Assembly (NCBI GenBank): GCA_029884165.1
Contig: JAOUIH010000007.1
Coordinates: 1-64,000, forward strand
From: Gammaproteobacteria bacterium
Lineage (GTDB): Bacteria > Pseudomonadota > Gammaproteobacteria > Steroidobacterales > Woeseiaceae
Length of the DNA: 64,000 nucleotides
Direction: 5' to 3'
Shown here: piece by piece, positions 1,963 to 26,184 of the stretch
Layout of the letters: each line of letters opens with the position of its first letter
How positions within the stretch are numbered: position 1 is the stretch's first letter
Position numbers and translations under genes: made by a program
Notes under the pieces: generated by a model
Told to the model about the DNA's origin: nothing
Seen by the model: only the letters and a program-made list of their open reading frames with translations
Databases searched by the model: none

Positions 1963-2099
1963 ACAGCGCTTGCGCAATGTGCGGCCGGACACCGTCGAAT
2001 ACGCCGTCCAGCGGGTGCGGTGATCCTAGCAGGACACCCTGCCTAATTCACGCCGCAAAAATTCCGTTCAACCGTCGAAAGCAGGATTGTGGATATTTT

Positions 2100-4763
2100 A
2101 TGAGCAGTTTCAGCCGATTTGACGACCTGGACCCGACCGAGACCAGCGAGTGGCTGGAGTCCATCGATTCCGTGCTGAAAGTGCATGGCCCCGACCGGGC
2201 CCATTTCCTGTTGAACCGGATGATCGATTTCGCCCGGCGCTCCGGCGCCTACCTGCCGTATAGCCCGAACACCGCTTACCTGAACACGATTCCCGTCGGC
2301 ATGCAGCCGGAATACCCGGGCGACCGCGCCGTCGAAAAGCGCATCGAGGCCTACCTCCGCTGGAATGCGATGGCGATGGTCGTGCAGGCCAACCGCAAGA
2401 GCACCGAGTACGGCGGCCACATTTCGAGTTACGCGTCGTCGGCGACTCTCTACGAGGTCGGCTTCAATCATTTCTGGCGGGCCGCGACGGACAAGCAGGG
2501 CGGCGACATGGTGTTCGTGCAGGGACACTCGGCGCCAGGCATCTATGCCAGGGCTTACCTGGAGGGACGCCTGACCGAGGAGCAATTGGGCCGCTTTCGC
2601 CAGGAGGTCGGAGGCGGCGGGCTGTCGTCGTATCCGCATCCCTGGCTGATGCCCGAGTTCTGGCAGTTCCCCACCGTCTCAATGGGTCTCGGGCCGATGA
2701 TGGCGATCTACCAGGCTCGCTTCATGCGTTACCTCGAGCACCGCGAGATCGTGGCGCCGAGCGACAGGAAAATCTGGTGTTTCCTGGGCGACGGCGAGAC
2801 GGACGAGCCGGAGTCGATGGGCGCGATTACGATGCCGGTCCGCGAGGGGCTCGACAACCTGATCTTCGTCATCAACTGCAACCTGCAACGGCTGGACGGC
2901 CCGGTTCGAGGCAACGGCAAGATCATCCAGGAACTCGAAGCGGCCTTCGGCGGCGCCGGCTGGAACGTCATCAAGGTCGTCTGGGGTTCGCGCTGGGACC
3001 CGCTGCTCGCGAAAGACCACACGGGCCGGCTGCGGCGCGTGATGGAGGAGTGCGTCGACGGCGAGTACCAGAACTTCAAGGCCAAGGGCGGAGCCTATGT
3101 TCGCGAGAATTTCTTCGGCCGCTACCCCGAGACCCTGGAAATGGTCGCGAACATGTCGGACGACGAGGTCTGGCGTTTGAACCGTGGCGGTCACGATGCG
3201 GTCAAGGTTTTTTCGGCATACCAGCAGGCGGTCAGTCACACTGGCCGGCCGACCGTCATCCTTGCAAAGACCGTCAAGGGTTACGGCATGGGCCAGGCAG
3301 GCGAAGGCCAGAACATCGCGCATCAGCAGAAGAAGCTGGACATAGACGCGGTGCGGCAGTTTCGCGACCGGTTCAATATCCCCGTCGCGGACAAGGATCT
3401 CGATCGCGTGCCGTTCTACATGCCGGACCGCGACAGCGCCGAACTCGAGTACCTGCACGAGCGGCGCAAGGCGCTCGGCGGCTATCTGCCGCAGCGCAGG
3501 CCCAAAGCGAAGCCGCTGGATGCACCCCCGCTCGATGCGTTCAAGAGCCAGCTCGAGGGTTCCGGCGACCGCGAGATCTCCACGACGATGGCGTTCATCC
3601 GGCTGCTGACGGCGCTGGTCCGGGACAAGAACATCGGCAAGCATGTCGTGCCTATCGTGCCTGACGAAGCGCGGACCTTCGGTATGGAAGGAATGTTCCG
3701 CCAGATCGGCATCTATTCCTCGGTCGGCCAGCTGTATACGCCCCAGGACGCCGACCAGCTCATGTACTACCGTGAAGACAAGAAGGGCCAGATCCTCGAA
3801 GAGGGCATCAACGAGGCAGGTGCGTTCTGCTCCTGGCTGGCCGCGGGCACGTCGTACAGCAACCATGCGACGCCGATGATCCCGTTCTACATTTACTATT
3901 CGATGTTCGGTTTCCAGCGTATCGGCGACTTCGTGTGGGCTGGCGGGGACCTGCAGGCACGCGGCTTCCTGCTCGGCGGCACGGCCGGGCGCACCACGCT
4001 GGCGGGCGAAGGGCTGCAGCACCAGGACGGCCATAGCCTCGTGCTGGCATCGACTTTCCCGAATTGCGTGGCTTATGACCCGACCTACGCGTATGAGCTC
4101 GCGGTCATCATCCGGGAGGGCCTGCGCAGGATGCTGCAGGAACAGGAAAACGTTTTCTATTACATCACCTGCATGAACGAGAATTACACGCACCCGGCGA
4201 TGCCCGCGGGCGTCGAGGACGGCATCGTGCGGGGCATGTACCTGCTGCAAAAGGGCGGCCCGGGCAAGATCCGGCCCCAGCTGATGGGCTCCGGGACCAT
4301 CCTGCGCGAGGTGATCGGTGCCGCCGAATTGCTGTTCAAGGATTTCGGCGTGCCGTCGGACGTCTGGTCGGTCACGAGCTTCAACGAGCTCCGCCGGGAT
4401 GCGCTGGAGGTCGAGCGCTGGAACCAGCTGCATCCAGCGGACGAGCCGCGGAAGTGTTACGTGGAGACCGCATTCGCCAAGCGCAAGGGCCCGTTCGTCG
4501 CGGCGACCGACTACATGAAGATCGTCCCGGACCAGATCCAGCGCTGGGTGCCCGGCCGATTCGTCTCGCTGGGCACCGATGGCTTCGGCCGCAGCGATGC
4601 ACGTGCCGCGTTGCGCGACCATTTCGAGGTGGATCGACGCCATATAGTCGTCGCGACGCTGAACGCGCTGGCGGATGAAGGCGCGCTCGATCGCACGACG
4701 GTCGGGCAGGCGATCAAGAAGTATGGCATCGATCCGGCCAAGCCAGATCCTGTGAAGCTGTAA
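2100..4763 (+). CDS. aceE: Pyruvate dehydrogenase E1 component, homodimeric type
   Basis: Thiamine-diphosphate enzyme that decarboxylates pyruvate and reductively acetylates the lipoyl groups of E2. The start was set at the ATG at 2100 (MSSFSRFDDLDP), giving 887 aa, the same length as the E. coli enzyme. A longer in-frame extension begins at 1977 but carries sequence unlike the family. The ThDP motif is visible as GDGETDEPES followed by NCNLQRLDGP. The gene is first of the PDH operon, followed after 23 bp by aceF. Confidence 0.97.
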   Translation: MSSFSRFDDLDPTETSEWLESIDSVLKVHGPDRAHFLLNRMIDFARRSGAYLPYSPNTAYLNTIPVGMQPEYPGDRAVEKRIEAYLRWNAMAMVVQANRKSTEYGGHISSYASSATLYEVGFNHFWRAATDKQGGDMVFVQGHSAPGIYARAYLEGRLTEEQLGRFRQEVGGGGLSSYPHPWLMPEFWQFPTVSMGLGPMMAIYQARFMRYLEHREIVAPSDRKIWCFLGDGETDEPESMGAITMPVREGLDNLIFVINCNLQRLDGPVRGNGKIIQELEAAFGGAGWNVIKVVWGSRWDPLLAKDHTGRLRRVMEECVDGEYQNFKAKGGAYVRENFFGRYPETLEMVANMSDDEVWRLNRGGHDAVKVFSAYQQAVSHTGRPTVILAKTVKGYGMGQAGEGQNIAHQQKKLDIDAVRQFRDRFNIPVADKDLDRVPFYMPDRDSAELEYLHERRKALGGYLPQRRPKAKPLDAPPLDAFKSQLEGSGDREISTTMAFIRLLTALVRDKNIGKHVVPIVPDEARTFGMEGMFRQIGIYSSVGQLYTPQDADQLMYYREDKKGQILEEGINEAGAFCSWLAAGTSYSNHATPMIPFYIYYSMFGFQRIGDFVWAGGDLQARGFLLGGTAGRTTLAGEGLQHQDGHSLVLASTFPNCVAYDPTYAYELAVIIREGLRRMLQEQENVFYYITCMNENYTHPAMPAGVEDGIVRGMYLLQKGGPGKIRPQLMGSGTILREVIGAAELLFKDFGVPSDVWSVTSFNELRRDALEVERWNQLHPADEPRKCYVETAFAKRKGPFVAATDYMKIVPDQIQRWVPGRFVSLGTDGFGRSDARAALRDHFEVDRRHIVVATLNALADEGALDRTTVGQAIKKYGIDPAKPDPVKL

Positions 4764-4786
4764 GCTAGCGGCGACGGAGCAGACAG

Positions 4787-6406
4787 GTGGCGGAGCAAAT
4801 CGAAATAAGGGTGCCGGACCTCGGTGACTTCGAAGATGTCGAGGTCATCGAGATACTCGTCACGGCCGGGGACGTGGTCAAGCCCGAGGACGGACTGATC
4901 ACGCTCGAGACCGACAAGGCATCCATGGACGTGCCGTCACCGTCGGCCGGGCGCATCGTCTCGCTCGGCGTCAAGGTCGGCGACCGCGTTTCCGCCGGAG
5001 ATGTCATCGGCTCCCTGGAAGTCGACGTGGCCGCCGTCGCCGCGGACAGAGCCGCGCCGCCCGTGCCGGCCGCGGAGTCACCGTCGGGGCCGGCGACCGC
5101 CCGGTCCGCCAGGAAGACGGTCGCAGTGCCGGACATCGGCGATTTCAGCGATGTCGACGTCATTGACGTACACGTATCGGCAGGCGACAGGATCTCGCTG
5201 GACGACCCGATCGTGACGATCGAGACGGACAAGGCGGCGATGGAAGTGCCGAGCACGGTGCAGGGAACCGTCGTCGAGCTGCTGGTCAGGGCTGGCGACA
5301 AGGTATCGGAAGGCTCGCCGCTCATCGTCGTCGATGCCGTCGCCGGTGCAGCGCCCGCGGCCAGGACCGGCGCCGCGCCGCCGCCGTCAAAACCTGCCGC
5401 GGCAGCCGCAGCACCCGCGCCGGCGCCCGTGCGGCAGACACCGCCGTCTGCGCCGCGCAAGACTGCAGCCCTGCCGCCGATCAACGAGGCCGGCTTCTCC
5501 CGCGCTCACGCGAGTCCGTCGGTGCGCAGGCTGGCTCGCGAACTCGGCGTCGACCTTGCGCAGGTCAACGGCTCTGGACCGAAGAACCGGATCCTGCACG
5601 ACGACGTCAAGGCGTTCGTGAAGGCGATCCTGTCGGGCGGCGGTCCGCAGGCGGCCCCGGCCTTGCCGCAGGTGCCTGCGGTCGACTTCGAGAAGTTCGG
5701 CGCGGTCGAGAGCGTTCCGCTGACCCGCATCCAGAAGATATCCGGCCCGCGCCTGCAGGCGAGCTGGATAAATCTCCCGCACGTTACCCAGCATGACCTT
5801 GCGGACATCACGGAACTCGAAGCAGAGCGGCAGAAACTAAAAGCCAAATCGGCCGACAAGGGCGTCAAGCTGACGCCGCTTGCCTTCATCCTGAAAGCCT
5901 GCGTCGCTGCACTGAAGGAGCACCCGAAGGTTAACGCCTCTCTGTCGAATGATGGACAGTCGCTAGTCTACAAGAAGTATGTGCATCTCGGTTTCGCGGC
6001 GGACACGCCACAGGGTCTCGTCGTGCCTGTGATTCGCGATGCCGACAAGAAAGACGTCTTCGAACTCGCGCGTGAATTGGCCGACCTGTCATCGGCGGCG
6101 CGCGACGGCAAACTGAAAGTCGACCAGATGCAGGGCGCAAGCTTTACCGTGTCGAGCCTGGGAGGCATTGGCGGGACCGCGTTCACGCCGATCGTCAACG
6201 CTCCGGAAGTGGGCATCCTCGGCGTATCGCGTTCGTCGATGCAGCCTGTCTGGAACGGCTCTGCGTTCGAACCGCGCCTGATGCTGCCGCTGTCGTTCTC
6301 CTACGATCACCGCGTCATCGACGGAGCGTATGCGGTCCGCTTCACCACGTTCCTGAGCCAGGCTCTCGCCGACGTGGGCGCGCTGCTGGCGGACGCCGGG
6401 AATTAG
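4787..6406 (+). CDS. aceF: Pyruvate dehydrogenase E2, dihydrolipoyl acetyltransferase
   Basis: Core acetyltransferase of the PDH complex, 539 aa, transferring acetyl from lipoamide to CoA. Two lipoyl domains are visible, with lipoylated lysines at about K44 (ETDKASMDVP) and K149 (ETDKAAMEVP). An Ala/Pro-rich linker follows, then a peripheral-subunit-binding domain (ASPSVRRLARELGVD) near residues 240-280. The catalytic domain ends with SYDHRVIDGA, giving His508 and Asp512. E. coli AceF has three lipoyl domains; here there are two, and another sits on the E3 protein next door. The GTG start follows a GGAG at a suitable distance. Only 2 bp separate it from lpdA. Confidence 0.97.
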   Translation: MAEQIEIRVPDLGDFEDVEVIEILVTAGDVVKPEDGLITLETDKASMDVPSPSAGRIVSLGVKVGDRVSAGDVIGSLEVDVAAVAADRAAPPVPAAESPSGPATARSARKTVAVPDIGDFSDVDVIDVHVSAGDRISLDDPIVTIETDKAAMEVPSTVQGTVVELLVRAGDKVSEGSPLIVVDAVAGAAPAARTGAAPPPSKPAAAAAAPAPAPVRQTPPSAPRKTAALPPINEAGFSRAHASPSVRRLARELGVDLAQVNGSGPKNRILHDDVKAFVKAILSGGGPQAAPALPQVPAVDFEKFGAVESVPLTRIQKISGPRLQASWINLPHVTQHDLADITELEAERQKLKAKSADKGVKLTPLAFILKACVAALKEHPKVNASLSNDGQSLVYKKYVHLGFAADTPQGLVVPVIRDADKKDVFELARELADLSSAARDGKLKVDQMQGASFTVSSLGGIGGTAFTPIVNAPEVGILGVSRSSMQPVWNGSAFEPRLMLPLSFSYDHRVIDGAYAVRFTTFLSQALADVGALLADAGN

Positions 6407-6408
6407 CC

Positions 6409-8187
6409 GTGGCCGGGACGATCGAACTGCGAGTGCCCGAACTCGGCGATTTCGAGCAGGTGGAAGTCATCGAGGTGCTGGTCAAACCAGGCGACCAGGT
6501 CGCCGTCGATGACCCGCTGATTACGCTGGAAACGGACAAAGCATCGATGGACGTGCCGGCCACCTGCAACGGCACGGTCGTGGAGGTGCACTTGTCGGTC
6601 GGTGCGCGCGTGTCGGCAGGCGATCTCGTACTGACTCTCGACCCGGCGGCCGCAGAGGGGGAGACGGACGGGGACGACGAATTCGGCACCACGATCGTCA
6701 TGGCGCCCGAGGAGCAGGCGGCCGTGGTCGCGGCGGCCGCAAAGTCGGCTGCGGAATCTCGTGCCCCGGCCGGCGACGCAACTCACACAACGGATCTGGT
6801 CGTCATCGGCGCCGGGCCCGGCGGTTATACCGCGGCGTTTCGGGCCGCGGACCTCGGCTTGAAGGTGATGCTGGTGGAACGCTGGCCGGTACTGGGCGGC
6901 GTGTGCCTGAATGTCGGCTGCATACCGTCGAAGGCGCTGCTGCATGCCGCCAGGGTCATCGAAGATGCAGCGGCGATGGCGGAGCACGGCGTCAGCTTCG
7001 GGGAACCGACGATCGACGCGACAAAGCTCCGCGATTGGAAGAACAAGGTCGTCGGGCGTCTGACCGGCGGACTGGCGCAGCTTGCGAAGCAGCGCAAGGT
7101 CACCGTCGTGCAAGGTGTCGCGAAGTTCGAATCGGCAAACCGACTGGTGCTGGACGGTGGTGACACGATCGACTTCGCGAAGTGCATCATCGCGGCAGGT
7201 TCCGAGAGCATGCGTCTGCCGGGAATTCCCGAGGACCCGCGTATCGTCGATTCGACGGGAGCGCTGGAGCTGGAGTCCCTGCCCGAGCGAATGCTGGTCG
7301 TCGGTGGCGGCATCATCGGGCTCGAGATGGCCTGCGTTTACAGCGCCCTGGGCACTCGCGTCAGCGTCGTCGAGCTGACAGATCAGCTGATGCCGGGCAC
7401 GGACCCGGACCTCGTGCGGCCATTCCAGAAGGTCATCGCCGCGAAATACGAGGCCATAATGCTCGGCACGAGGGTCGCCGAGATGCAGGCGACGAAGCAA
7501 GGAATCGAGGTGTTGTTCGAAGGCAAGCAGGCGCCGGAGCCACAGCTGTACGATCGTGTGCTCGTGGCCGTGGGCCGCCGCGCTAACGGCGACAGGCTCG
7601 ATGTCGAGAAGGCCGGAGTCCGCGTGGACCAGCGCGGCATCATCGCGGTCAACAAGCAGATGCAGACCAACGTGCCGCACATATTTGCGATCGGGGACCT
7701 GGCCGGTGGGCCTATGCTCGCCCACAAGGCTACGCACGAGGCCAAGGTCGCGGCCGAGGTGGCGGCCGGAGAGAAGAGCGCCTTCGACGCGCGGACGATT
7801 CCCTCGGTTGCCTACACGGACCCGGAGGTCGCCTGGGTCGGGCTGACGGAAACCGAGGCGAAGCGGCAGGGCATCGGCTACGAGAAGGCCCAGTTTCCGT
7901 GGGCCGCCAGCGGCCGGGCGCTGTCACTGGGGCGGGACGAGGGCTTCACAAAACTGCTGTTCGACAAGGACAGCGGCCGCGTACTCGGAGGCGGGATCGT
8001 CGGTCCCTCGGCGGGCGATCTCATTGCTGAGATCGGGCTGGCTGTCGAGATGGGCGCAGATGCCGCGGATATCAGCCTGACGGTCCATCCGCATCCGACG
8101 CTTTCCGAAACTGTCGCGTTTGCCGCGGAGGCGTTCGAGGGCACGCTGACCGATCTCTACATACCGAAGAAGCGCAAGCGGCATTGA
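6409..8187 (+). CDS. lpdA: Dihydrolipoyl dehydrogenase E3 with N-terminal lipoyl domain
   Basis: FAD flavoprotein reoxidising dihydrolipoamide with NAD+. At 592 aa it is about 115 residues longer than ordinary E3 because of an N-terminal lipoyl domain (ETDKASMDVP, Lys44) and a linker. The FAD motif GAGPGGYTAAFRAADLG is followed by the redox disulfide GGVCLNVGCIP (Cys166/Cys171), the NAD motif VGGGIIGLE and the C-terminal HPHPTLSE with the catalytic His near 562. The GTG start lies 2 bp after the aceF stop. Lipoyl-E3 fusions are known in several proteobacteria. Confidence 0.96.
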   Translation: MAGTIELRVPELGDFEQVEVIEVLVKPGDQVAVDDPLITLETDKASMDVPATCNGTVVEVHLSVGARVSAGDLVLTLDPAAAEGETDGDDEFGTTIVMAPEEQAAVVAAAAKSAAESRAPAGDATHTTDLVVIGAGPGGYTAAFRAADLGLKVMLVERWPVLGGVCLNVGCIPSKALLHAARVIEDAAAMAEHGVSFGEPTIDATKLRDWKNKVVGRLTGGLAQLAKQRKVTVVQGVAKFESANRLVLDGGDTIDFAKCIIAAGSESMRLPGIPEDPRIVDSTGALELESLPERMLVVGGGIIGLEMACVYSALGTRVSVVELTDQLMPGTDPDLVRPFQKVIAAKYEAIMLGTRVAEMQATKQGIEVLFEGKQAPEPQLYDRVLVAVGRRANGDRLDVEKAGVRVDQRGIIAVNKQMQTNVPHIFAIGDLAGGPMLAHKATHEAKVAAEVAAGEKSAFDARTIPSVAYTDPEVAWVGLTETEAKRQGIGYEKAQFPWAASGRALSLGRDEGFTKLLFDKDSGRVLGGGIVGPSAGDLIAEIGLAVEMGADAADISLTVHPHPTLSETVAFAAEAFEGTLTDLYIPKKRKRH

Positions 8188-9548
8188 GGGACGGGCCACC
8201 CGAATCGGCAGGCCGGGCAGCGCTGCTCAAGTTTCTAATCCCGTCCCTGATCGGTGGTTTCACTTTCCTGGTACCCGTACGAGACGAGGGCGTCATCACC
8301 ATTCCGATGGCGATAGCGTCGAACTCCCTGGGCGAATTGCTGAAGGATTACCTCCCCGCGATCGTACTGGCGATCGTAACGATGTCGGCCGCGCTATCGT
8401 TGTGGTTCTCGACTCGCCGTGCCGCCGAGGCGGCTGGAGGCGGCCGCCTGCGGCAGATATTCACCGTGAACCGCGCCTGGCTGACCGTCCGGGTGGCCGG
8501 TTTCGCGGTTGCGTCGATGATATTTTTCCAGGTCGGGCCGGAGGCCGTGTGGTCGGACGCAACCGGCAGGGTCGTGATGTACGACCTCGCAACCGTGCTC
8601 GTGACGATTTTCGTCGTAGCGTCGTTCCTGATGCCCTTGCTGACCGACTACGGCCTGATGGAGCTGGCGGGTACCTTGCTAAGCCGCGCATTTCGGGTTG
8701 CGTTCCGACTGCCCGGCCGATCCTGCATCGACGCGCTGGCGTCGTGGATGGCAGCGGCGCCCGTCGGCGTGCTGCTGACTTCGCAACAGTTCGAGCGTGG
8801 CAATTACTCGGGTCGTGAGGCCGCGGTCATCGCGACTAACTTCTCGGTCGTATCGGTACCTTTTTGCGTGATAGTCGCCGAGTTCGTCGGGCTGGCGCAC
8901 CTGTTCGTGCAGTATTACCTGACGGTCGTGATCGCCGGCCTGGTCGCTGCAGTCATTACGCCGCGCATCCCGCCCTTGTCGCGGATACCCGATACCTATT
9001 CGGAAGCGGGCAAGCAGCTCGAGGAAGACCTTTATCCGCCACAGGGGCTCTTGCGGGCCGGTGTCGATGCGGCGCTCAGGAAAAGCGCCGGGGCGCCCGG
9101 CTTCAGAAACCTTTTGAGCACGGCAGTGCACAATCTTTTCGATATCTGGTTCGGGCTGATGCCGGCGCTGATCGCGATCGGCACGCTGGGCCTCGTGGTC
9201 GCCGAGTACACGCCGATCTTCCGGTGGCTGTCCTACCCGTTCATCCCCTTGCTGCAGCTGATGCAACTGCCGGAGGCCGCGGCGGCCGCGCCGGCGCTGC
9301 TGGTCGGCTTCGCCGACATGTTCCTGCCCGCGGTGCTGGCCAAGAACCTCGCCAGCGAGCTGACGCGCTTCGTGGTCATCACCGTGTCGATTACGCAGCT
9401 GATCTACATGACGGAGGTTGGCGTGCTGATCCTGAAAACCAGAATCCCGCTGAGCTTCCTGAACCTGGTACAGGTATTCCTGATTCGAACGCTGATCACG
9501 CTGCCGATCGCGGCGGCATTCGGGCACCTGTTCGTCGGCGGAGCGTAA
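8184..9548 (+). CDS. YjiH-type membrane protein with nucleoside-recognition (Gate) domains
   Basis: Polytopic inner-membrane protein, 454 aa, with many hydrophobic segments (for example near residues 12-35, 55-75, 105-125, 135-155, 330-350 and 425-445). The segment PGRSCIDALASWMAAAPVGV and the later VGFADMFLPAVLAKN resemble the paired Gate domains of YjiH/nucleoside-recognition proteins. The transported substrate is not known and cannot be read from the sequence. The proposed TTG start overlaps the lpdA stop (TTGA), suggesting coupling to the PDH operon. No functional link to PDH is evident. A later start is possible. Confidence 0.75.
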   Translation: MRDGPPESAGRAALLKFLIPSLIGGFTFLVPVRDEGVITIPMAIASNSLGELLKDYLPAIVLAIVTMSAALSLWFSTRRAAEAAGGGRLRQIFTVNRAWLTVRVAGFAVASMIFFQVGPEAVWSDATGRVVMYDLATVLVTIFVVASFLMPLLTDYGLMELAGTLLSRAFRVAFRLPGRSCIDALASWMAAAPVGVLLTSQQFERGNYSGREAAVIATNFSVVSVPFCVIVAEFVGLAHLFVQYYLTVVIAGLVAAVITPRIPPLSRIPDTYSEAGKQLEEDLYPPQGLLRAGVDAALRKSAGAPGFRNLLSTAVHNLFDIWFGLMPALIAIGTLGLVVAEYTPIFRWLSYPFIPLLQLMQLPEAAAAAPALLVGFADMFLPAVLAKNLASELTRFVVITVSITQLIYMTEVGVLILKTRIPLSFLNLVQVFLIRTLITLPIAAAFGHLFVGGA

Positions 9549-9569
9549 TCGCTTGCCGGCTTCCCGCGA

Positions 9570-10709
9570 TCAGCCGAAGTTCGAATAGATCCGCTGGAAT
9601 TCCGTGACCATGCGCTCGGTTTCCTCGGGCTCGGGGTTCCGCGTGTAGTCGCCCAGCTTGAAGGTGCCGCCGAGCAGCACCACGTCGGTGCGCGGAAACA
9701 TGTAAAGCATGCCCTTGCCGCCGCCGAAGGACATGAAGTCGACTGCCGGGTCGGGCGGCAGGAATACGAGCTGGCCCTTCGCGGGCGTCAGCTCCTCATC
9801 GCCGAAGAGTTCGGCCGCGCCCAGCCCGGTGCAGTTCAAAACGACCGGTTCCGCCAGCGCCAGCACCTCGTCCAGTTTTCCAAAACTCCGGATGACGTAC
9901 TTGCCTCCCGCAATGTGGAAATCCTGCGTCAGGCGTCGCAGCAGGATCGCCGGCTCGACGCGCATCGTCACAAGGCGCTGCACGTAGCGTGTCGGGAATG
10001 GATGCTCGCCGGGACCTAGGTAGGAATAGTACGGGAACAGGTCCGCCAGCAGCTCCTCTTCCTGGTCCGGAGCGAACGGCTCGTCGCTCATACTGTATAC
10101 CTCCATCCACGTCACCCCGTAGTCGGGGCCGGTGAGGTTGGTATAGGCATGATGCGCGACGCGCGAGGCCCATTCGAATTGCGACATGAACGCCGGCGAG
10201 ACGACGGAACGGTCGAACACGCTGAACGGCGACCACTCCCCGGCGGCGACGTTGGATGTCGTGTGTCGCGCGATGTCCCGCGTGTAGATCGTCACCTGCC
10301 AGCCGGCATCCTGCAGCAGCCTGGCGCTCGTGAGCCCCATGACGCCGCTGCCGAGTACGGCGGCCTGGCCTGGAGGCTTGCCGGCAAGCTCGCGAACGGC
10401 CAGCGCCGAGGATCCCCAGGACAGGCTTATGCCGCCGCCACCGTGCCCGTAGTTGTGCACGATGTGCTTGCCGTCGAGGTGCTCGCTCTTCACGACGAAA
10501 CCGGACGGACGATAGGGCCGGTGGCCTACCACCGACCTGATCACGTGGTTCATTGAAATGCGGGGCGCGGCGAAGGGCTGCCGGGAATAGGGCCTGGAAT
10601 AAGCCGGTCCGCGAGTCGTCATCGGCGCGCAGGCCGAAACCGTAGCGACAAGTGCTCCGGCACCAAGAGTCCTGAGCAGCTCGCGCCGCCTGCCGTCTAC
10701 TGCAAGCAT
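9570..10709 (-). CDS. D-amino-acid-oxidase-like FAD oxidoreductase, probable Tat-exported lipoprotein
   Basis: FAD-dependent oxidoreductase of the DAO family, 379 aa. The N-terminus has twin arginines (RRELLRTLGAG), a hydrophobic stretch and a lipobox-like VSAC, so export by Tat and lipidation are likely. The dinucleotide-binding motif VLGSGVMGLTSARLL lies near residues 118-132, followed by NVAAGEWSPF and a C-terminal GGTFKLGDYTRNPEP typical of D-amino-acid oxidases. The natural substrate is unknown. A GGGGGA lies just before the ATG at 10709. It is 105 bp downstream of the DoxX gene and may be the last gene of that operon. Confidence 0.8.
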   Translation of the reverse strand: MLAVDGRRRELLRTLGAGALVATVSACAPMTTRGPAYSRPYSRQPFAAPRISMNHVIRSVVGHRPYRPSGFVVKSEHLDGKHIVHNYGHGGGGISLSWGSSALAVRELAGKPPGQAAVLGSGVMGLTSARLLQDAGWQVTIYTRDIARHTTSNVAAGEWSPFSVFDRSVVSPAFMSQFEWASRVAHHAYTNLTGPDYGVTWMEVYSMSDEPFAPDQEEELLADLFPYYSYLGPGEHPFPTRYVQRLVTMRVEPAILLRRLTQDFHIAGGKYVIRSFGKLDEVLALAEPVVLNCTGLGAAELFGDEELTPAKGQLVFLPPDPAVDFMSFGGGKGMLYMFPRTDVVLLGGTFKLGDYTRNPEPEETERMVTEFQRIYSNFG

Positions 10710-10814
10710 GGCATTCCCCCGTTGGTATTATTCGGGTGCAGCCTAAGGGGCCGGCACCCGAAACACAACGGCCGGCAGGTCCGCAAGTTTCGCTTGGCGG
10801 CTTCCGTTCCATCG

Positions 10815-11405
10815 TCAGCGCGCGAGACGACGGGCGACCAGGTGGTCGAGGCCCAGCTTGCCGCTACCGGTGAAGAACAGGGCGAGGAGCATCACGAAGT
10901 ACGTAATCGCCCACTCGATGCCGTTGTTCGAAACCACGAAGTTGCCGGTCTCGGTCAGCCAGTCGTAGTTGCCGTGCTCGCGCAGTATGCTCTTGGCACG
11001 GTCGAGGCGCTGCATCGCAGCTTCGACATCCGCACCCGCCCATGGGCTCATCGGGTCCGCCACCGCCTGCCAGCCGTTGGCCCAGTGCACTTTGAATGCG
11101 GCGACCAGCATGGTGATCATCAGCGGAACGGCAAACCAGCGGACGCCGAGGCCGACCAGCAGCGCGACGGCTCCGAGCACCTCGGCGCCGACCGCGAGCC
11201 ACGCCATCAGCGCGGGGAAGGGCAGGCCCAGTCCCCAGTCCGGATTGCCGAACCACGCGATCACGTTGTCCATGCCGTCGAGCTTGTTGGTGCCGGCGAC
11301 CCAGAACACGGGTACCAGGTAGAGGCGCAGGGCCAGCGGCCCGAGAAAGTCCACCGCGCGGCTTCGGTCCAGCAGGGACTGGGCGCGGAAAAGGATCTCC
11401 GTCAT
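10815..11405 (-). CDS. DoxX family membrane protein
   Basis: Small inner-membrane protein of about 196 aa with four hydrophobic segments. It carries the DoxX signature LRLYLVPVFWVAGTNKL and GAEVLGAVALLVGLG. The start was set at the ATG at 11405, preceded by GGAG at 9 nt; an upstream in-frame ATG has no such site. DoxX proteins occur beside MNIO (DUF692) and DUF2063 genes in bufferin-type copper-binding peptide clusters, and the same order is seen here. No cysteine is visible. The exact role of DoxX in these clusters is not settled. Confidence 0.85.
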   Translation of the reverse strand: MTEILFRAQSLLDRSRAVDFLGPLALRLYLVPVFWVAGTNKLDGMDNVIAWFGNPDWGLGLPFPALMAWLAVGAEVLGAVALLVGLGVRWFAVPLMITMLVAAFKVHWANGWQAVADPMSPWAGADVEAAMQRLDRAKSILREHGNYDWLTETGNFVVSNNGIEWAITYFVMLLALFFTGSGKLGLDHLVARRLAR

Positions 11406-11459
11406 TCGATCGTCTCCGTTCTTGAAAGCGGCGTGCCGGGCCGGCACGCGCGTCGCTGC

Positions 11460-12230
11460 TCAGGAAGACCGGGCGACGCCGACGATTATTTCAGCAGCAC
11501 GCAGGTCCTGCATGGCCGCGAGGGCGTGCGCGATCAGGGCGGTCGGGTCGGCGTAGCCGATCTCATCCGCGAGCGAGACGATGAGCTGCTCGCCCGTCTG
11601 CGAGTCATTTTCGCCGATGCGCTCGAGCAGGCGGGCCGTCACGGGGTTCAGCTCGGTGAAACCGAGGTCGTCGTCGCTCTTCCGGTACACGACGAGGAAT
11701 GTAGGCGTTTCCGGCGCATCGGCAGGCAGGAAGTCCTCCGCGATGCGGTGGACCGGGTAGCGGTAGCTGCAGAGCCACGCGAGTCGGGACATGACGGGGA
11801 TACCGGCCAGCAGGTCGCCGTCCGGGTCGACGTCGAGTTCTTCGTTTGATTCTTGCGAGACCGACAGGGCCAGTTCGGCCCACTCGTAGTGAGCCAGTTC
11901 GGCCAGGAACGGAAAGTCCTCGTCCGAGGCATCGTATTCGTATTGCAGAAAATCGACGAATTCGGCCGGGATCTCGAGGAAGTAGGGCGTCTCCGACCGG
12001 TGAGCCGCCATGAAGCGCCGGATCAGCCGGCGCCAGCTGTCGCGGCCGTGTATTTTCTTCAGGACCGGAAAGGTGCTGCCGAGCAGGCTCAGCAGGTTGT
12101 TGTAAAAGAGCTCGCGGTAGATGGCCATGCGCCGGTCTTCGATGCCGGCGGGCGGCGGGTTGGCGTCCGGGTCGCGGATATGCGCCGCGAACTCGTACTG
12201 TCGGCGCTGGAAAGCCGGTCGCTCAGCCAC
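11460..12230 (-). CDS. DUF2063 / BufC-type MNIO partner protein
   Basis: Partner protein of the MNIO enzyme, about 256 aa. In bufferin-type RiPP systems a DUF2063-containing protein (BufC) is thought to bind the precursor and present it to the MNIO enzyme. The N-terminal part (RRQYEFAAHIRDP, then YRELFYNNL) matches the DUF2063 start. The later half (VSRLAWLCSYRYPVHRI-like segment, then LVVYRK and LNPVTARLLERI) matches the usual C-terminal region. The GTG at 12230 was chosen because it restores the family's N-terminus, has GGGGAAG upstream and overlaps the MNIO stop by 8 bp. Confidence 0.85.
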   Translation of the reverse strand: MAERPAFQRRQYEFAAHIRDPDANPPPAGIEDRRMAIYRELFYNNLLSLLGSTFPVLKKIHGRDSWRRLIRRFMAAHRSETPYFLEIPAEFVDFLQYEYDASDEDFPFLAELAHYEWAELALSVSQESNEELDVDPDGDLLAGIPVMSRLAWLCSYRYPVHRIAEDFLPADAPETPTFLVVYRKSDDDLGFTELNPVTARLLERIGENDSQTGEQLIVSLADEIGYADPTALIAHALAAMQDLRAAEIIVGVARSS

Positions 12231-13089
12231 CGGCTGCTTCCCCGACCCGGCCGTCCGCCGGTGCAGACGCCTGCAAATCGCGGACCCGGCGGACCTCGCC
12301 CAGGAGCTCGTCGAGCGGCGGGAAATTGAAATCCCGCTCGAGCAGCGTGGGAACGGGTCCGAAGTGCCGGTAGGCGGCGCCGAGCAGGTCCCATACCGCG
12401 TCGCTGATGGCGGAGCCATGCGTGTCGATGCGCAGGTCCTCGGCCTCGACGTAGTGACCGGCGACGTGGAAATAACGGATGCGCTCGGACGGCATGGCCA
12501 GCATGAAGTCCAGCGGATCGTAACGGTGGTTGATGCCGTTGACCACGATGTTGTTGATGTCGAGCAGCAGGTCGCAGTCGGCCTCCTCGAGCACGGCCTG
12601 TGTGAATTCTGTCTCGCTCATCGAGGTATCGGCCGGCGCGTAATAGGAGACGTTTTCCACGGCGATTCTCTGCTCCAGGATTTCCTGTGCCCGGCGGATC
12701 CGTCCGGCGACCCAGTGGACGGCTTCCTCGGTGAACGGGATCGGCATCAGGTCGTAGAGCTGCCCGTCGTCGCCGCAGTAACTCAGGTGCTCGGAGTAGA
12801 ACCGTATGCCGTGCTCGCGCATGAACGACTTGATGTCCCGCAGCAGCGCCTCGTTCAGCGGAGCGGGTCCGCCGATCGACAGCGACAGGCCGTGGATCAG
12901 GAACGGGTAACGCTCGGTGAAGAAGCGGAACTTCCTGCCGAGCTTGCCGCCTACCCGAATCCAGTTCTCGGGCGCGACCTCCATGAAGTCGACCTCGGCC
13001 GGGGGAGCGGCCATGAGGCGGTCGATCAGTCCACGGCGCAGGCCCAGGCCGGCGCCGGCGACAGGGTAGCGTGCAGCGGTATCTGGCAT
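12223..13089 (-). CDS. MNIO family (DUF692) multinuclear iron enzyme, BufB-like
   Basis: TIM-barrel multinuclear non-heme iron oxidative enzyme, 288 aa. MNIOs modify cysteines in ribosomally made peptides, for example into oxazolone/thioamide or thiooxazole groups that bind copper. Ligand-rich motifs appear in order: EVAPENW, HGLSLSIGG, SEHLSY, ENVSYY, LLLDINNIVVN, HVAGH, DTHGSAI and LLERDFNFPP. These supply the His/Glu/Asp/Asn set expected for the iron centre. It overlaps the DUF2063 gene. The precursor gene (DUF2282 or other Cys-rich exported peptide) usually found just upstream is absent: the 61 bp before it lead directly to the cysteine-free DUF1841 protein. Confidence 0.9.
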   Translation of the reverse strand: MPDTAARYPVAGAGLGLRRGLIDRLMAAPPAEVDFMEVAPENWIRVGGKLGRKFRFFTERYPFLIHGLSLSIGGPAPLNEALLRDIKSFMREHGIRFYSEHLSYCGDDGQLYDLMPIPFTEEAVHWVAGRIRRAQEILEQRIAVENVSYYAPADTSMSETEFTQAVLEEADCDLLLDINNIVVNGINHRYDPLDFMLAMPSERIRYFHVAGHYVEAEDLRIDTHGSAISDAVWDLLGAAYRHFGPVPTLLERDFNFPPLDELLGEVRRVRDLQASAPADGRVGEAAGG

Positions 13090-21472: not shown

Positions 21473-22570
21473 CTACTCGAAATAGGGGTCCGGTTCGACG
21501 GTATCCCGGACGGACTTGAATTTCGCCTTGTTGTTGGCCTGCAGATAGGCTTCGTCACCGGAAATCTGGCCGCTTTCGACCAGCTTCATGAGCGCGCTGT
21601 CCATGGTGATCATGCCGACCGAGCCGCCGCTCTGCATGGCGGTTTCGAGCTGGTCCAGCTTGCCCTGTCGAACCAGGTTGGCGACGGCCGAGGTATTTAT
21701 CAGGATCTCCAGGGCCGCGACCCGGCCGGGCTTGTCCTTGACCGGCAGCAGCTGCTGCGAAATCACCCCACGCAGCGACGTCGAAAGCATGGTGCGTATA
21801 TGGCTCTGCTTGTCGGCCGGGAAGGAATTGACGATGCGGTCGACGGTCTGGGCGGCGCCGTTCGTGTGCAGCGTGCCCATGACAAGGATGCCCATCTCGG
21901 CCGCGGTCACCGCGATGCTGATGGTCTCGAGGTCACGCAATTCGCCGACCAGGATCACGTCCGGATCTTCGCGCAGGGCCGAGTGCAGGGCGTCCGCGAA
22001 GCTTGCGCTGTGCACACCGACCTCGCGTTGTGAAATCAGGCAGCCCTGCCGCTTGTGCACGAACTCGATCGGGTCCTCGATCGTAAGTATGTGCCCCTTC
22101 AGGCGCTTGTTGATCGCGTCGATCATTGCAGCGAGCGTAGTGGACTTGCCGGAACCCGTCTTGCCGGTGACGAGGATCATGCCGGAAGTCTGCTTGCACA
22201 AGTTGTGAACTACCTCGGGCATGTTCAGTTCGTCGAGCGTGAGCGCTTTCGACGGGATCGCACGGAATACCGCCCCAATGCCGTTCAGGTGCCGCATGAC
22301 ATTGACGCGAAATCTCGACACTCCCGGAATCTCGTAGGCAAAGTCAGCGGCGTCTTTCTTTTCGAAATCGCGCTGCGTCGTGCCGCCCATGATCTCGTAC
22401 ATGCAATCCCGCACTTCGTCAATTGTCAGGACTTCATCCTGCAGCAAGGTTAGCGACCCATGCACGCGAACCCGGGGCGGGTCGCCGGATATGAAATGCA
22501 GGTCGGATCCGCGCTTGTCCAGCGCGGTCTTCAGGTAGGAATCGATGCGGTTGACGTGGCCCTCTGTCAT
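21473..22570 (-). CDS. PilT/PilU-type AAA+ ATPase (first of pair)
   Basis: Type IV pilus retraction-type hexameric ATPase, 365 aa. The N-terminal PAS-like domain has SDLHFISGDPPRVRVHG. The Walker A is GKTGSGKST, the Asp box TIEDPIEFVH, the Walker B ILVGELRDLETI and the His box MGTLHTNGA. The AIRNLIRE-like motif is present as SAVANLVRQGKLDQLE. ELRD replaces the more common EMRD. It is the last gene of a three-gene run with the second ATPase (8 bp gap) and the HEAT-kinase. It resembles PilU or an extra PilT; the sequence alone does not decide. Confidence 0.88.
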   Translation of the reverse strand: MTEGHVNRIDSYLKTALDKRGSDLHFISGDPPRVRVHGSLTLLQDEVLTIDEVRDCMYEIMGGTTQRDFEKKDAADFAYEIPGVSRFRVNVMRHLNGIGAVFRAIPSKALTLDELNMPEVVHNLCKQTSGMILVTGKTGSGKSTTLAAMIDAINKRLKGHILTIEDPIEFVHKRQGCLISQREVGVHSASFADALHSALREDPDVILVGELRDLETISIAVTAAEMGILVMGTLHTNGAAQTVDRIVNSFPADKQSHIRTMLSTSLRGVISQQLLPVKDKPGRVAALEILINTSAVANLVRQGKLDQLETAMQSGGSVGMITMDSALMKLVESGQISGDEAYLQANNKAKFKSVRDTVEPDPYFE

Positions 22571-22578
22571 CGACGTCC

Positions 22579-23670
22579 TCAGTCGTCCGCACCCAGTGCG
22601 GGCAATATCGCCGAGTCGGTCGCGTAACGATGGAACTTGCGCTTGTCGGCCGCGTATCGAATCGCGTCGTCGGGGTCGATCTCCTTCTTTTCCAGGGCAT
22701 CGAGCAGGGCCTGGTCCAGCAGCTGCATGCCGATATTCCGGCCGGTCTGCAGCTGCGCCGGAATCTGGTGAGTCTGGTCCGTCATGATCAGCTTCGAGAT
22801 CGCGCGGTTGTTGACCAGGATTTCGACGACCGCCTTGCGGCCGCGGCCGTCCGGCGTCTTGACCAGCACCTGTGTCACGACGGCCTTCAGGCTTTGCGCG
22901 AGGAAGCTCTTGGTCTGTTCCCGCAATTCGCCAGGCAGCGCGTCGATGATTCGATCGATTGTCTTGACCGCGCCGGTCGTGTGCAGCGTGCCGAGCACCA
23001 GGTGGCCGGTCTCCGCCGCGGTCATGGCCATCGAGATCGTCTCCGCGTCGCGCAGCTCACCGACGAGGATGACGTCCGGATCTTCGCGCATGGCCGAGCG
23101 CACCCCGTCGGCAAACGTTCGCAGGTGGGTCCCGAGCTCGCGCTGGATGACCTGTGATTTCTTGCTCGGGTGCACGAATTCGATCGGGTCTTCGAGACTG
23201 ATGATATTCAGCGCCCGGGAGTTGTTCAGGTAGTCGATCATCGCGGCGAGCGTCGTCGACTTTCCGGTGCCGGTCGAGCCGGTCACGAGAACCATACCCT
23301 GGTGGAAGTCGCAGAAGTCCTGCAGCACGGGCGGCAGGTTCAGCTTTTCGAGGGTGGGCACGGCATTCGGGATATAGCGGAACACGGCGCCAACACCGGT
23401 GTCCTTACGGAACATATTGACCCGGAAACGGCCGCCGTCCTCGCTTACGTAGGAGAAGTCCAGGTCCTTGCCCGAGTGAAACCGCTCGCGCTGGGCGTCG
23501 CTTAGGATCTCCGTGACATAGCCCTCGAGCTCGGTATCTGTCAGGTCACGGAACTTGATCGGCAACAAATCGCCGTGCATCCGCAGCATCGGCGGAACGC
23601 CGACGGAAAGGTGGACGTCGGAGCAGCCCTGGGCGAGCCCGAGCTTCAGAAATGCATCAATGCGCGGCAT
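22579..23670 (-). CDS. PilT/PilU-type AAA+ ATPase (second of pair)
   Basis: Second retraction-type ATPase, 363 aa. It shows SDVHLSVGVPPMLRMHGDL, Walker A GSTGTGKST, Asp box SLEDPIEFVHP, Walker B ILVGELRDAETI and His box LGTLHTTGA. The arginine-rich helix reads AISKLIMTDQTHQIPAQLQTG. It is clearly related to, but not the same as, the neighbouring ATPase. A PilT-PilU pair is the known pattern in pili that retract, with PilU acting through PilT. The usual yggS/proC context of pilT is absent. The gap to the upstream kinase gene is 90 bp. Confidence 0.88.
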   Translation of the reverse strand: MPRIDAFLKLGLAQGCSDVHLSVGVPPMLRMHGDLLPIKFRDLTDTELEGYVTEILSDAQRERFHSGKDLDFSYVSEDGGRFRVNMFRKDTGVGAVFRYIPNAVPTLEKLNLPPVLQDFCDFHQGMVLVTGSTGTGKSTTLAAMIDYLNNSRALNIISLEDPIEFVHPSKKSQVIQRELGTHLRTFADGVRSAMREDPDVILVGELRDAETISMAMTAAETGHLVLGTLHTTGAVKTIDRIIDALPGELREQTKSFLAQSLKAVVTQVLVKTPDGRGRKAVVEILVNNRAISKLIMTDQTHQIPAQLQTGRNIGMQLLDQALLDALEKKEIDPDDAIRYAADKRKFHRYATDSAILPALGADD

Positions 23671-23760
23671 TGGAGTGGAATATTGCCTTGAACTTCATGT
23701 AGATACTGCGGCTATCGTAGGCGGATTCCCCGCGCGCCGCCAGTGCGCCGCAGCACATTT

Positions 23761-26184
23761 TCATAAATTGATCGCGTTGAGGGCGTCGATAAGTTCGTTC
23801 ATGGTGCTGTAGCGCTTGCTCTTGTCGACCGCCATGGCCTTGCCGATGATTGCGGCCAGCTCGTCCGGCACGTTCGGATTGACCTCCTGGCAGGTCTTGG
23901 CCTTGCCCTGGACGTGCTGGTACATCACCGACATGTGGTCGCCCCGGCTGTACGGCGGGATGCCGGTGACCATCTCGTACATGATGACGCCGACACTGTA
24001 GATGTCGGCCTTTTCGTCCACTTTCTTGCCGAGGATCTGTTCCGGTGCCATGTACTTGGGCGAGCCGATGACGTAACCCGTTTTCGTCAGCTGGGTATCG
24101 CCGCTTTTCGCCGCCGCCGCCACGCCGAAGTCCACGATTTTCAGCAGACCCTCATTGTTGACCAGGATATTGGCGGGCTTCAGGTCGCGATGGATGACGC
24201 CGGCCTGGTGTGCCACCGCCATGCCGGTCGCGATGTCCACAGAGAACCGGAGCGCCTTCTTGAAATCCATGGGCTCGCTGTCCGGGATCTCGCCCGAGAG
24301 CGTATGCGACGGGAAGTACTCCATCGAAATCGCGTAGCAGCCCTGCAGGTACAGGAAGTCGTAAATCCGGATGACATTGCGGTGCGTGATCTTGCGCGAG
24401 TAACGCAGCTCGTGCACGAAGCGCTTCATCATCTCCTCGTCCGAGGACACGTTCGGATTCAGGAACTTCAGGATCAGTCGCTCCTCGACGACCTGGTCCT
24501 CCATCAGCAACACGGTACCGAAAGCGCCCTTGCCGATCTTCTCGATGTACTTGTAGCGGCCATCTACAATGTCACCGGGCTCCAGCTTGGAGATATCCAG
24601 CACGGGCGGCGGCTCCGGCACCGGTGCGGCGGGGCTGGCCGGCACCTCCTGCTTCGTCGATGCAATGATGCTCTCCAGCGCCTCGTTGTCGATGAGCAGC
24701 GTACGCGTGTGCTCAGCCAGCTTCTCCGCGCGCCGGTTTTCTTCCATGACCGATGCGGCGAACTTGGCGTCGAGCTCCTTCAGTGCCTTGTCCGCGATAT
24801 TGACGACCGTCGGGTCGTCTGCCTGCTTGATCTTTCTCAGCACCGTGCGGATGGTCTGCGCATGCTGCTCGTCGGCGAGGTGTGAAATGGCCTTGATGGC
24901 TTCGAGCTGGACGTCGCGCTCGGGCCGGCTCAGCATCGGGACAAGCTTGTCGATGATCGTATGGTCGCCGAGCTTGGCGAGCGCACGAACGACGACGGTA
25001 TCCGTCTTGGCGTTCTGGCCGAGCATCTTGACCAGCTTCGGCACAGCCTTCTTGCTGCCGATCTGCGCCAGCGCATCGACGGCACGCTCGCGAACCCACC
25101 AGTCCGAGTCGTCGGTCGCCTTGATCAGCTGGTCTACCGCCTGTTCGTCCTTGGTCGCATTCAGGATCTCGATGGCGGTGCGCCGGATGTCTTCGTCCTT
25201 GTCGTTAATGAGGGCGAGCACCGATCGCACGACCTTCGGGCCGCCGATGTCGGCGAGCGCGTCGCCGGCACGGGCCCTAACCCACCAGTCGTCGTCCTTG
25301 ATCGCCTCCAGCAGATCCTTCACCGAATCGACTGTGCCGATCTCGTTCAGGACCTCTACGGCCGCCCGGCGAGTGTATTCGGATTCGTCCTTCAGGGCCG
25401 CGACCAGATGTTTCGTGGTTTCGGGGTGGTTGATCTTTATGATCACGTCCACTGCCTTGCTCTGCACTTCGAGATCCGGGTCGTGCAGCAGCCGGGTCAG
25501 TTTCTCGATGTTGACCGGGCCCTTCCGGGTCGACAAAGCGACCAGCGCGGCGCCCCGGACGAGCTTGCTGGTATCCGCCAGCTGGTTTTCGAGTACCTGG
25601 TTGATCTCGGCCCGATCGAACTTCGACAGCAGCCGGATCAGGTGCATCTTGACGACCGGGTCCTTGCCGCCCATCCGGTTGATCAGGTCAGGAATCAGGT
25701 CCTCGGTGACCACCTCCTCGATGATGGCGAACAGCTGCGCCTTTTCCTTCGGCTCGAGCTCGTAGGCGCGTCGCATCAGTTCGTGCACGTTGAGGCTCTG
25801 CTTGTGCACCTTCAGGACCTCGATCAGGGCGGGCTTGGAGACCTCCGGGTTGTCGAGGAACTCGAGCAGGTTGTTGGCGTTGTAATTGTGGCTGCTCGAC
25901 AGCGCCCAGGCCGTGCCGGACACGACCCGCTCGTTCCCGTCGGCGAGACCCTCCTGGTACAACTTCAGCGTCCTGTCGCTGACCTGGCTGGCCAGGATGT
26001 CGACGAACAGCATCGTGTGGGTCTTGTCGCTCATGGCGAGCGCGTCGATCACGCGCGGTATCGTCTTCGGGCCCAGGTTCTTCAGGCGTTCGACCAGGCG
26101 CTCGGCGTTTCTCGAACTCACGTCCGACTCGCTGGCCAGCTGGCCAATAAGCTGATCGGCGCGGAATCCGCCCAGGAGGCTCAT
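23761..26184 (-). CDS. HEAT-repeat Ser/Thr protein kinase
   Basis: Large signalling protein, 807 aa. Residues from about 10 to 500 are tandem HEAT/PBS-lyase-like repeats; two have the near-identical DDDWWVRARA and DDSDWWVRERA helices, and several end DALAQIG or DALADIGG. After a Pro-rich linker near 520-535 a Hanks-type kinase domain fills about 545-807: glycine loop GKGAFG (551-556), Lys573, HRDLKPANIL with catalytic Asp667, DFGVAA and an APEQ motif. All key residues are present, so it should be active. There is no membrane segment. The ATG at 26184 follows GGGAG by 8 nt. It leads the two PilT-type ATPases. Substrate unknown. Confidence 0.85.
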   Translation of the reverse strand: MSLLGGFRADQLIGQLASESDVSSRNAERLVERLKNLGPKTIPRVIDALAMSDKTHTMLFVDILASQVSDRTLKLYQEGLADGNERVVSGTAWALSSSHNYNANNLLEFLDNPEVSKPALIEVLKVHKQSLNVHELMRRAYELEPKEKAQLFAIIEEVVTEDLIPDLINRMGGKDPVVKMHLIRLLSKFDRAEINQVLENQLADTSKLVRGAALVALSTRKGPVNIEKLTRLLHDPDLEVQSKAVDVIIKINHPETTKHLVAALKDESEYTRRAAVEVLNEIGTVDSVKDLLEAIKDDDWWVRARAGDALADIGGPKVVRSVLALINDKDEDIRRTAIEILNATKDEQAVDQLIKATDDSDWWVRERAVDALAQIGSKKAVPKLVKMLGQNAKTDTVVVRALAKLGDHTIIDKLVPMLSRPERDVQLEAIKAISHLADEQHAQTIRTVLRKIKQADDPTVVNIADKALKELDAKFAASVMEENRRAEKLAEHTRTLLIDNEALESIIASTKQEVPASPAAPVPEPPPVLDISKLEPGDIVDGRYKYIEKIGKGAFGTVLLMEDQVVEERLILKFLNPNVSSDEEMMKRFVHELRYSRKITHRNVIRIYDFLYLQGCYAISMEYFPSHTLSGEIPDSEPMDFKKALRFSVDIATGMAVAHQAGVIHRDLKPANILVNNEGLLKIVDFGVAAAAKSGDTQLTKTGYVIGSPKYMAPEQILGKKVDEKADIYSVGVIMYEMVTGIPPYSRGDHMSVMYQHVQGKAKTCQEVNPNVPDELAAIIGKAMAVDKSKRYSTMNELIDALNAINL

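Follow-up and report, generated by a model that had tools for sequence, protein, structure and literature searches.

The 64,000-nucleotide stretch that we analyzed (the window; positions 1 to 64,000 of contig JAOUIH010000007.1 in assembly GCA_029884165.1, a gammaproteobacterium of the family Woeseiaceae) encodes a HEAT-repeat Ser/Thr protein kinase (HK) followed by two PilT-family ATPases (ATP1 and ATP2), and on the strength of their co-inheritance across genomes these three proteins almost certainly represent one functional module. Such a module suggests that type IV pili are subject to a phosphorylation switch not described before. The three genes lie on one strand in the order HK, ATP1, ATP2, with gaps of 90 bp and 8 bp, which confirms the initial annotation of an 807-aa HEAT-kinase, with its catalytic residues present, placed before two PilT-type ATPases. 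The features of the module are as follows.

23761-26184, minus strand: HK, HEAT-repeat Ser/Thr protein kinase, 807 aa (stop codon within the span)
24763-26181, minus strand: HEAT solenoid, HK residues 2-474, 30 predicted helices (~15 repeats), from the AlphaFold2 model and Pfam HEAT_2
25075-25380, minus strand: invariant concave patch, HK residues 269-370, a putative docking surface, from orthologue comparison
23764-24564, minus strand: PknB-like kinase domain, HK residues 541-807, with an activation-loop TxT, from Pfam, motifs and fold search
22579-23670, minus strand: ATP1, PilT-family ATPase, 363 aa, in a clade of its own, from TIGR01420 and tree
21473-22570, minus strand: ATP2, PilT-family ATPase, 365 aa, in a clade of its own, from TIGR01420 and tree

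Co-inheritance of the kinase and the ATPases

Our survey of the class covered 369 genomes of Gammaproteobacteria, with HK called at E <= 1e-60 and the ATP1 orthologue at E <= 1e-112, the latter cut-off having been set post hoc in the gap between orthologues (at least 57% identity) and paralogues (at most 50%). HK is present in 51 of these genomes and an ATP1 orthologue in 45, and all 45 genomes with ATP1 are HK-positive, with ATP1 found in none of the 318 HK-negative genomes. The positive genomes are spread over 24 families, and in the mixed families f126 and f129 HK and ATP1 are absent together from the negative members. The initial annotation had allowed that the pairing might be chance, with the kinase and the ATPases rarely neighbours elsewhere; this is not so, as HK is adjacent to ATP1 in 42 of the 45 genomes, in the order HK-ATP1-ATP2. 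In two genomes (G163 and G366) HK is on a different contig from ATP1-ATP2 and no ATPase adjoins it, yet all three genes are retained. Outside the class, we found no HK in a 299-genome sample of the phylum, where matches were to the kinase domain only. In a set of 13 genomes the module proteins co-vary with one another at r 0.67-0.84, versus r 0.51-0.61 with canonical PilT, which fits inheritance as a unit and is neutral as to whether the kinase controls the ATPases or the ATPases signal to the kinase.

Six HK-positive genomes gave no ATP1 call: three members of family f156, G285, G300 and G312. The f156 HEAT-kinases share 26-32% identity with HK over the longer matches, and they adjoin a clpB-like gene and not PilT-type ATPases (L151 8168-10582, L152 8058-10508 and L154 1-1992). 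We rejected G285 as an example of a HEAT protein without kinase or ATPases, the gene being interrupted by a 100-N scaffold gap. G300, G312 and G186 were likewise rejected as exceptions on account of contig breaks or incomplete assemblies: G300 has a contig-split gene with an ATP1 fragment visible, and G312 is an incomplete genome in which the locus ends at the contig end. Two genomes were candidates for an ATP2 in the absence of HK: G123, which clusters with canonical PilT in our tree and was rejected as well, and G238, of the same genus, which was outside the tree. A second HEAT-kinase relative occurs in G265 (L153) and G361 (L155), where it has other neighbours.

A further 80 named relatives, for the most part metagenome-derived genomes of Woeseiaceae and Chromatiales, all share this arrangement to the extent that their contigs cover it. 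In these relatives the flanking genes apbC, metG and rnf are also conserved, and for that reason the arrangement there could be synteny alone. Conservation of the whole apbC / HK-ATP1-ATP2-metG-rnf block within the taxonomic order of the window's genome is what would favour a neighbourhood without function, in which the genes are kept together through synteny or hitchhiking. Outside the order, however, the module lies away from apbC, metG and rnf, and since the flanking genes differ there while the trio stays intact, its linkage is not regional synteny. Presence and absence of the genes also coincide over the 24 families, and the genes are co-retained even when physically split. We therefore rejected chance neighbours or plain synteny, based on co-occurrence over families and a trio kept amid differing flanks, and consider a neighbourhood without function very improbable.

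Pyruvate dehydrogenase-like genes are located at 1977-9548 of the window (plus strand). An aceF-like gene neighbours HK in G366 (L158), and one lies near ATP1-ATP2 in G163 (L157), which is probably synteny.

ATP1 and ATP2 form clades apart from canonical PilT and PilU

PilT and PilU are the retraction ATPases of type IVa pili in Vibrio cholerae (PMC6762196, PMC6821130). Both ATP1 (421.4 bits) and ATP2 (452.3 bits) score above the cut-off of 319.1 bits for TIGR01420, the NCBIfam model for PilT/PilU, and like PilT and PilU they are two paralogues encoded side by side with intact Walker A and B motifs; none of the 31 ATP1 and 31 ATP2 sequences compared departs from the Walker A Lys or the Walker B Glu. 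In contrast to this likeness, a tree of 115 sequences resolved four clean clades, ATP1, ATP2, canonical PilT and canonical PilU, with SH-aLRT support of 100, 96, 100 and 100, respectively, and canonical PilT and PilU coexist with ATP1 and ATP2 in the same genomes. ATP1 retains Walker A, Walker B and the His box, but the AIRNLIRE motif is not conserved, and it has a conserved C-terminal tail, F-Q-R-F-V-T-D. In ATP2 the AIRNLIRE motif is partly kept, and the first His of the His box, which all ATP1, PilT and PilU sequences compared retain, is Ile in 30 of 31 sequences and Val in the other, with Ile at residue 228 of the ATP2 in the window. With these motif differences, a kinase gene upstream, separate clades and no adjacency to yggS or proC, neither protein is canonical PilT, and both fall outside the PilU clade.

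The canonical pilT-pilU of the window's genome is located on another contig (C23), where proC and yggS are divergent from pilT and two pilU-like genes, the gene names at this locus resting on synteny and sequence. We therefore rejected ATP1 and ATP2 as the sole PilT and PilU of the genome. The initial annotation of two distinct PilT/PilU-type ATPases, for which a second pilT-pilU next to yggS/proC was to be sought, thus stands as regards the subfamily, the distinctness of the two proteins and the presence of that second locus; it does not stand insofar as ATP1 and ATP2 are not this genome's PilT and PilU. At the canonical locus (L009, ~8046-11383) the two pilU-like genes, of 385 and 352 aa, follow pilT, and the genome encodes five PilT-family ATPases when ATP1 and ATP2 are counted. 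A third PilT-family gene is also present at the canonical loci of relatives (e.g., L170, L171, L172, L173, L175, L183 and L184).

Link to type IVa pili

Within the family of the window, ATP1 is present in 46 of 61 genomes, and in 33 of the 37 that are of good quality. Nine module-less genomes of this family, 1.3-2.0 Mb in size, contain no PilT-family gene above the cut-off. PilB is above its cut-off in 43 of the 51 HK-positive genomes of the class sample. From these distributions we consider it likely that the module works on type IVa pili. The alternative that ATP1 and ATP2 drive a machine other than the canonical type IVa pilus, either a separate type IV-like filament or a secretion system, with HK controlling that machine, would suit two ATPases that are not orthologous to PilT or PilU. 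It would also suit the module neighbourhoods compared, in which we recognised no gene for a pilin, platform protein or secretin. Set against this, both ATPases score above the PilT/PilU subfamily cut-off, the module and the PilT family are lost together in the reduced genomes, and there is no second filament locus beside the module (no genome-wide search for one was made); we regard a separate machine as improbable.

Structure of HK and a conserved patch in its HEAT repeats

The HK reading frame is open 5′ as far as 26508, and the ATG at 26184 is the start used by relatives. Pfam matches are to HEAT_2 (E 1.2e-55) and, over residues 544-795, to Pkinase (E 7.1e-52). The AlphaFold2 model consists of an unbroken solenoid of 30 helices, with a pLDDT of ~80-93 over most of its length (mean per 10-residue block), then a low-confidence linker and then the kinase domain; the whole model has a mean pLDDT of 79.9 and a pTM of 0.49, and because of this pTM the arrangement of the domains is not fixed. 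The Lys, HRD, DFG and APE motifs are all present, and motifs and fold together place HK among the Hanks-type kinases. These catalytic motifs are kept, with small variants only, in every full-length HK orthologue compared, from ~two dozen families. PknB is the closest solved kinase fold to the kinase part (Z ~26), and nearly all matches found with the whole HK model were kinases, so that this search barely probed the HEAT part. The best reading is that HK is a cytosolic, PknB-like kinase, catalytically intact and predicted to be active, on the end of a HEAT solenoid.

Conservation of HK peaks not in the kinase domain but in the inner helices of HEAT repeats 9-12 (EYxRRAAVEVLN, DDDWWVRxRAxDAL, DxRRxAxEILN and DWWVRERAxDAL). 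Here 22 charged, polar or aromatic residues, at positions that were selected for conservation, are identical across all HK orthologues compared, and they form a patch whose concavity is deduced from usual HEAT geometry (inner B helices) and not read from a measured surface. Orthologues from genomes without FHA, PP2C or f5 (a small protein encoded upstream of HK) have the same patch, which leaves ATP1 and ATP2 as the only partners that every module shares. The distant HEAT-kinases of f156, whose genomes are without ATP1 and ATP2, have lost the patch and retained the kinase motifs. Invariance in the presence of the ATPases and loss in their absence fit an ATPase docking surface. The earlier suggestion that the HEAT part docks onto the hexameric ATPases thus gains indirect support from the invariant patch, while the docking itself we still infer; in our view, the evidence for the patch as the site that binds ATP1 and ATP2 is evenly balanced.

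Phosphothreonine-signalling neighbours of the module

We compared module loci from ~two dozen families. Encoded directly upstream of HK, f5 is a protein of ~160 aa present in 36 of the 369 genomes, all of them HK-positive; 11 of 12 members have weak Pfam matches to DUF6812, and our search found no solved relative of this protein. Downstream of ATP2, 16 HK-positive genomes encode an FHA protein, f6 (E <= 1e-90; only HK-positive genomes were searched), with an FHA domain, an invariant EPTMF motif and GarA as its best solved relatives (E 2e-15). We take the EPTMF motif to resemble the phosphosite region of GarA. A PP2C phosphatase gene is present upstream of the module in nine genomes, an FHA-GAF-HD-GYP gene near it in four, a class III cyclase-FHA gene likewise in four, and a GGDEF-EAL gene at locus L165. 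These neighbours are, as far as their domains indicate, phosphothreonine-signalling parts with links to c-di-GMP and cAMP, and the FHA and PP2C genes in other families lend indirect support to phosphothreonine signalling by the module. We found no FHA or PP2C gene at the window locus, and in the window's own order these genes and f5 are missing from the module.

Tandem FHA genes are located downstream of ATP2 at L136 (5132-6832), and two are also present in G197. In two families a gene for a retropepsin-like aspartic protease lies between ATP2 and the cyclase-FHA gene (L140 11884-12618; L137 6003-6692). On contig C41 of the window's own genome, a separate cassette (L011 118-3789) contains in a row a kinase of 732 aa with an N-terminal sensor-like part, a PP2C and an FHA gene.

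A proposed mechanism and the direction of signalling

We marginally favour a mechanism in which HK, docked on the two ATPases, uses phosphorylation to control the dynamics of type IVa pili. The concave patch of HK would bind a hexamer of ATP1 and/or ATP2, which would be a specialised second PilT-type motor pair. The docked kinase would then phosphorylate the ATPases at Ser/Thr residues, as well as the neighbouring FHA protein where a lineage has one; where present, PP2C would act as the eraser that reverses this phosphorylation, and FHA as the reader. The result would be a phosphorylation-controlled switching of type IVa pilus retraction. In the window's order, HK may act directly on the ATPases or borrow the PP2C/FHA pair of contig C41. 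That the substrates are the ATPases or the module's FHA protein could go either way, and where it is encoded the FHA protein is as likely a substrate as the ATPases or a pilus protein.

Several points weigh against this mechanism. The Fisher p value for co-occurrence of HK and ATP1 (1e-51) overstates independence, owing to shared ancestry, and is indicative only. The conservation of the patch is in part built into the choice of its positions, and the HEAT part of the f156 kinases has diverged overall and represents one lineage, which weakens the patch argument. Furthermore, as the f156 HEAT-kinases do without these ATPases, the HEAT-kinase fusion itself is, judged by gene content, not ATPase-bound. 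Many genomes with the module, the window's included, have no FHA or PP2C gene at the locus. Finally, G699 (a 91%-complete assembly) is without ATP1, yet it contains three canonical PilT-family genes; from this genome and the distribution of PilT-family genes and PilB, the module accompanies type IVa pili without being required for them, and with most of the class also lacking it, the module is by distribution dispensable for pili.

The flow could also be reversed, with ATP1 and ATP2 as the sensor and HK as the output, such that the state of the pilus (load, ATP turnover or assembly) would pass via the HEAT arm to the kinase, which would signal surface contact to FHA proteins and second messengers. 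The class III cyclase-FHA and FHA-GAF-HD-GYP neighbours in other families, and the GGDEF-EAL gene at L165, are the kind of outputs that this would need, although such genes occur in few families only and none is at the window locus. The loss from ATP2 of an otherwise invariant His-box His would suit a regulatory over a purely motor role, and a full canonical pilT-pilU set is already in the genome; against this, the invariant Walker A Lys and Walker B Glu suggest that both ATPases probably hydrolyse ATP as motors. We consider reversed flow rather unlikely. We are similarly doubtful of a sensor-motor unit, present in ~24 gammaproteobacterial families, in which a HEAT-docked kinase and a dedicated ATPase pair would turn pilus mechanics into phosphothreonine signals, and it is an equally tentative suggestion that FHA proteins read these signals and pass them to c-di-GMP and cAMP enzymes.

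Control of type IV pilus retraction is usually ascribed to chemosensory systems and c-di-GMP. A eukaryote-like kinase module of such wide occurrence, if dedicated to a second pair of PilT-type ATPases, would bring phosphorylation into the control of pili as a further layer and would account for the extra PilT paralogues in many genomes, and surface sensing via pili would become testable by simple gene removals. The DUF6812-like family, seen here in kinase-bearing genomes only, would also gain a context.

Comparison with known systems

The initial annotation knew of no established pathway with this layout, in agreement with our literature search, which found no paper with this layout or with a PilT-kinase-FHA locus (subscription papers were mostly outside the search); in the texts searched, HEAT repeats and PilT were not linked in a relevant way. 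By the tests we made, which compare genes and predicted folds, the module is a member of none of three systems that it resembles in part. In the threonine phosphorylation pathway of type VI secretion, with the kinase PpkA, the phosphatase PppA and Fha1 (PMC5995506), kinase, phosphatase and FHA protein are encoded beside a putative target machine, as they are in some relatives of our module, but in our case a pair of PilT-type ATPases stands in place of the secretion machine, the kinase has HEAT repeats, and PP2C and FHA genes beside the kinase are present in other families and not at the window locus. In the phospho-switch of Actinobacteria, PknB and PknG act with GarA/OdhI on a metabolic target (PMC8546545). 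PknB is the closest solved fold to our kinase, GarA proteins are the nearest solved relatives of the f6 FHA protein, and PknG selects its substrates with the help of a scaffold of helical repeats (TPR); this TPR scaffold is, however, C-terminal to the kinase, whereas the HEAT repeats of HK are N-terminal, and there is no FHA gene at the window locus. In the archaellum regulatory network of Sulfolobus, the kinases ArnC and ArnD phosphorylate the repressor ArnB (PMC5300886), and Ser/Thr kinases thus influence a type IV pilus-related motility filament; that system differs in being archaeal, and neither a HEAT kinase nor an ATPase operon is reported for it.

Other features of the window

A DUF692/MNIO-like gene is located at 12223-13089 (minus strand), as identified by eye only, and with its neighbours (10815-13089, minus strand) it could form a small peptide-modification cluster, again as judged by eye.

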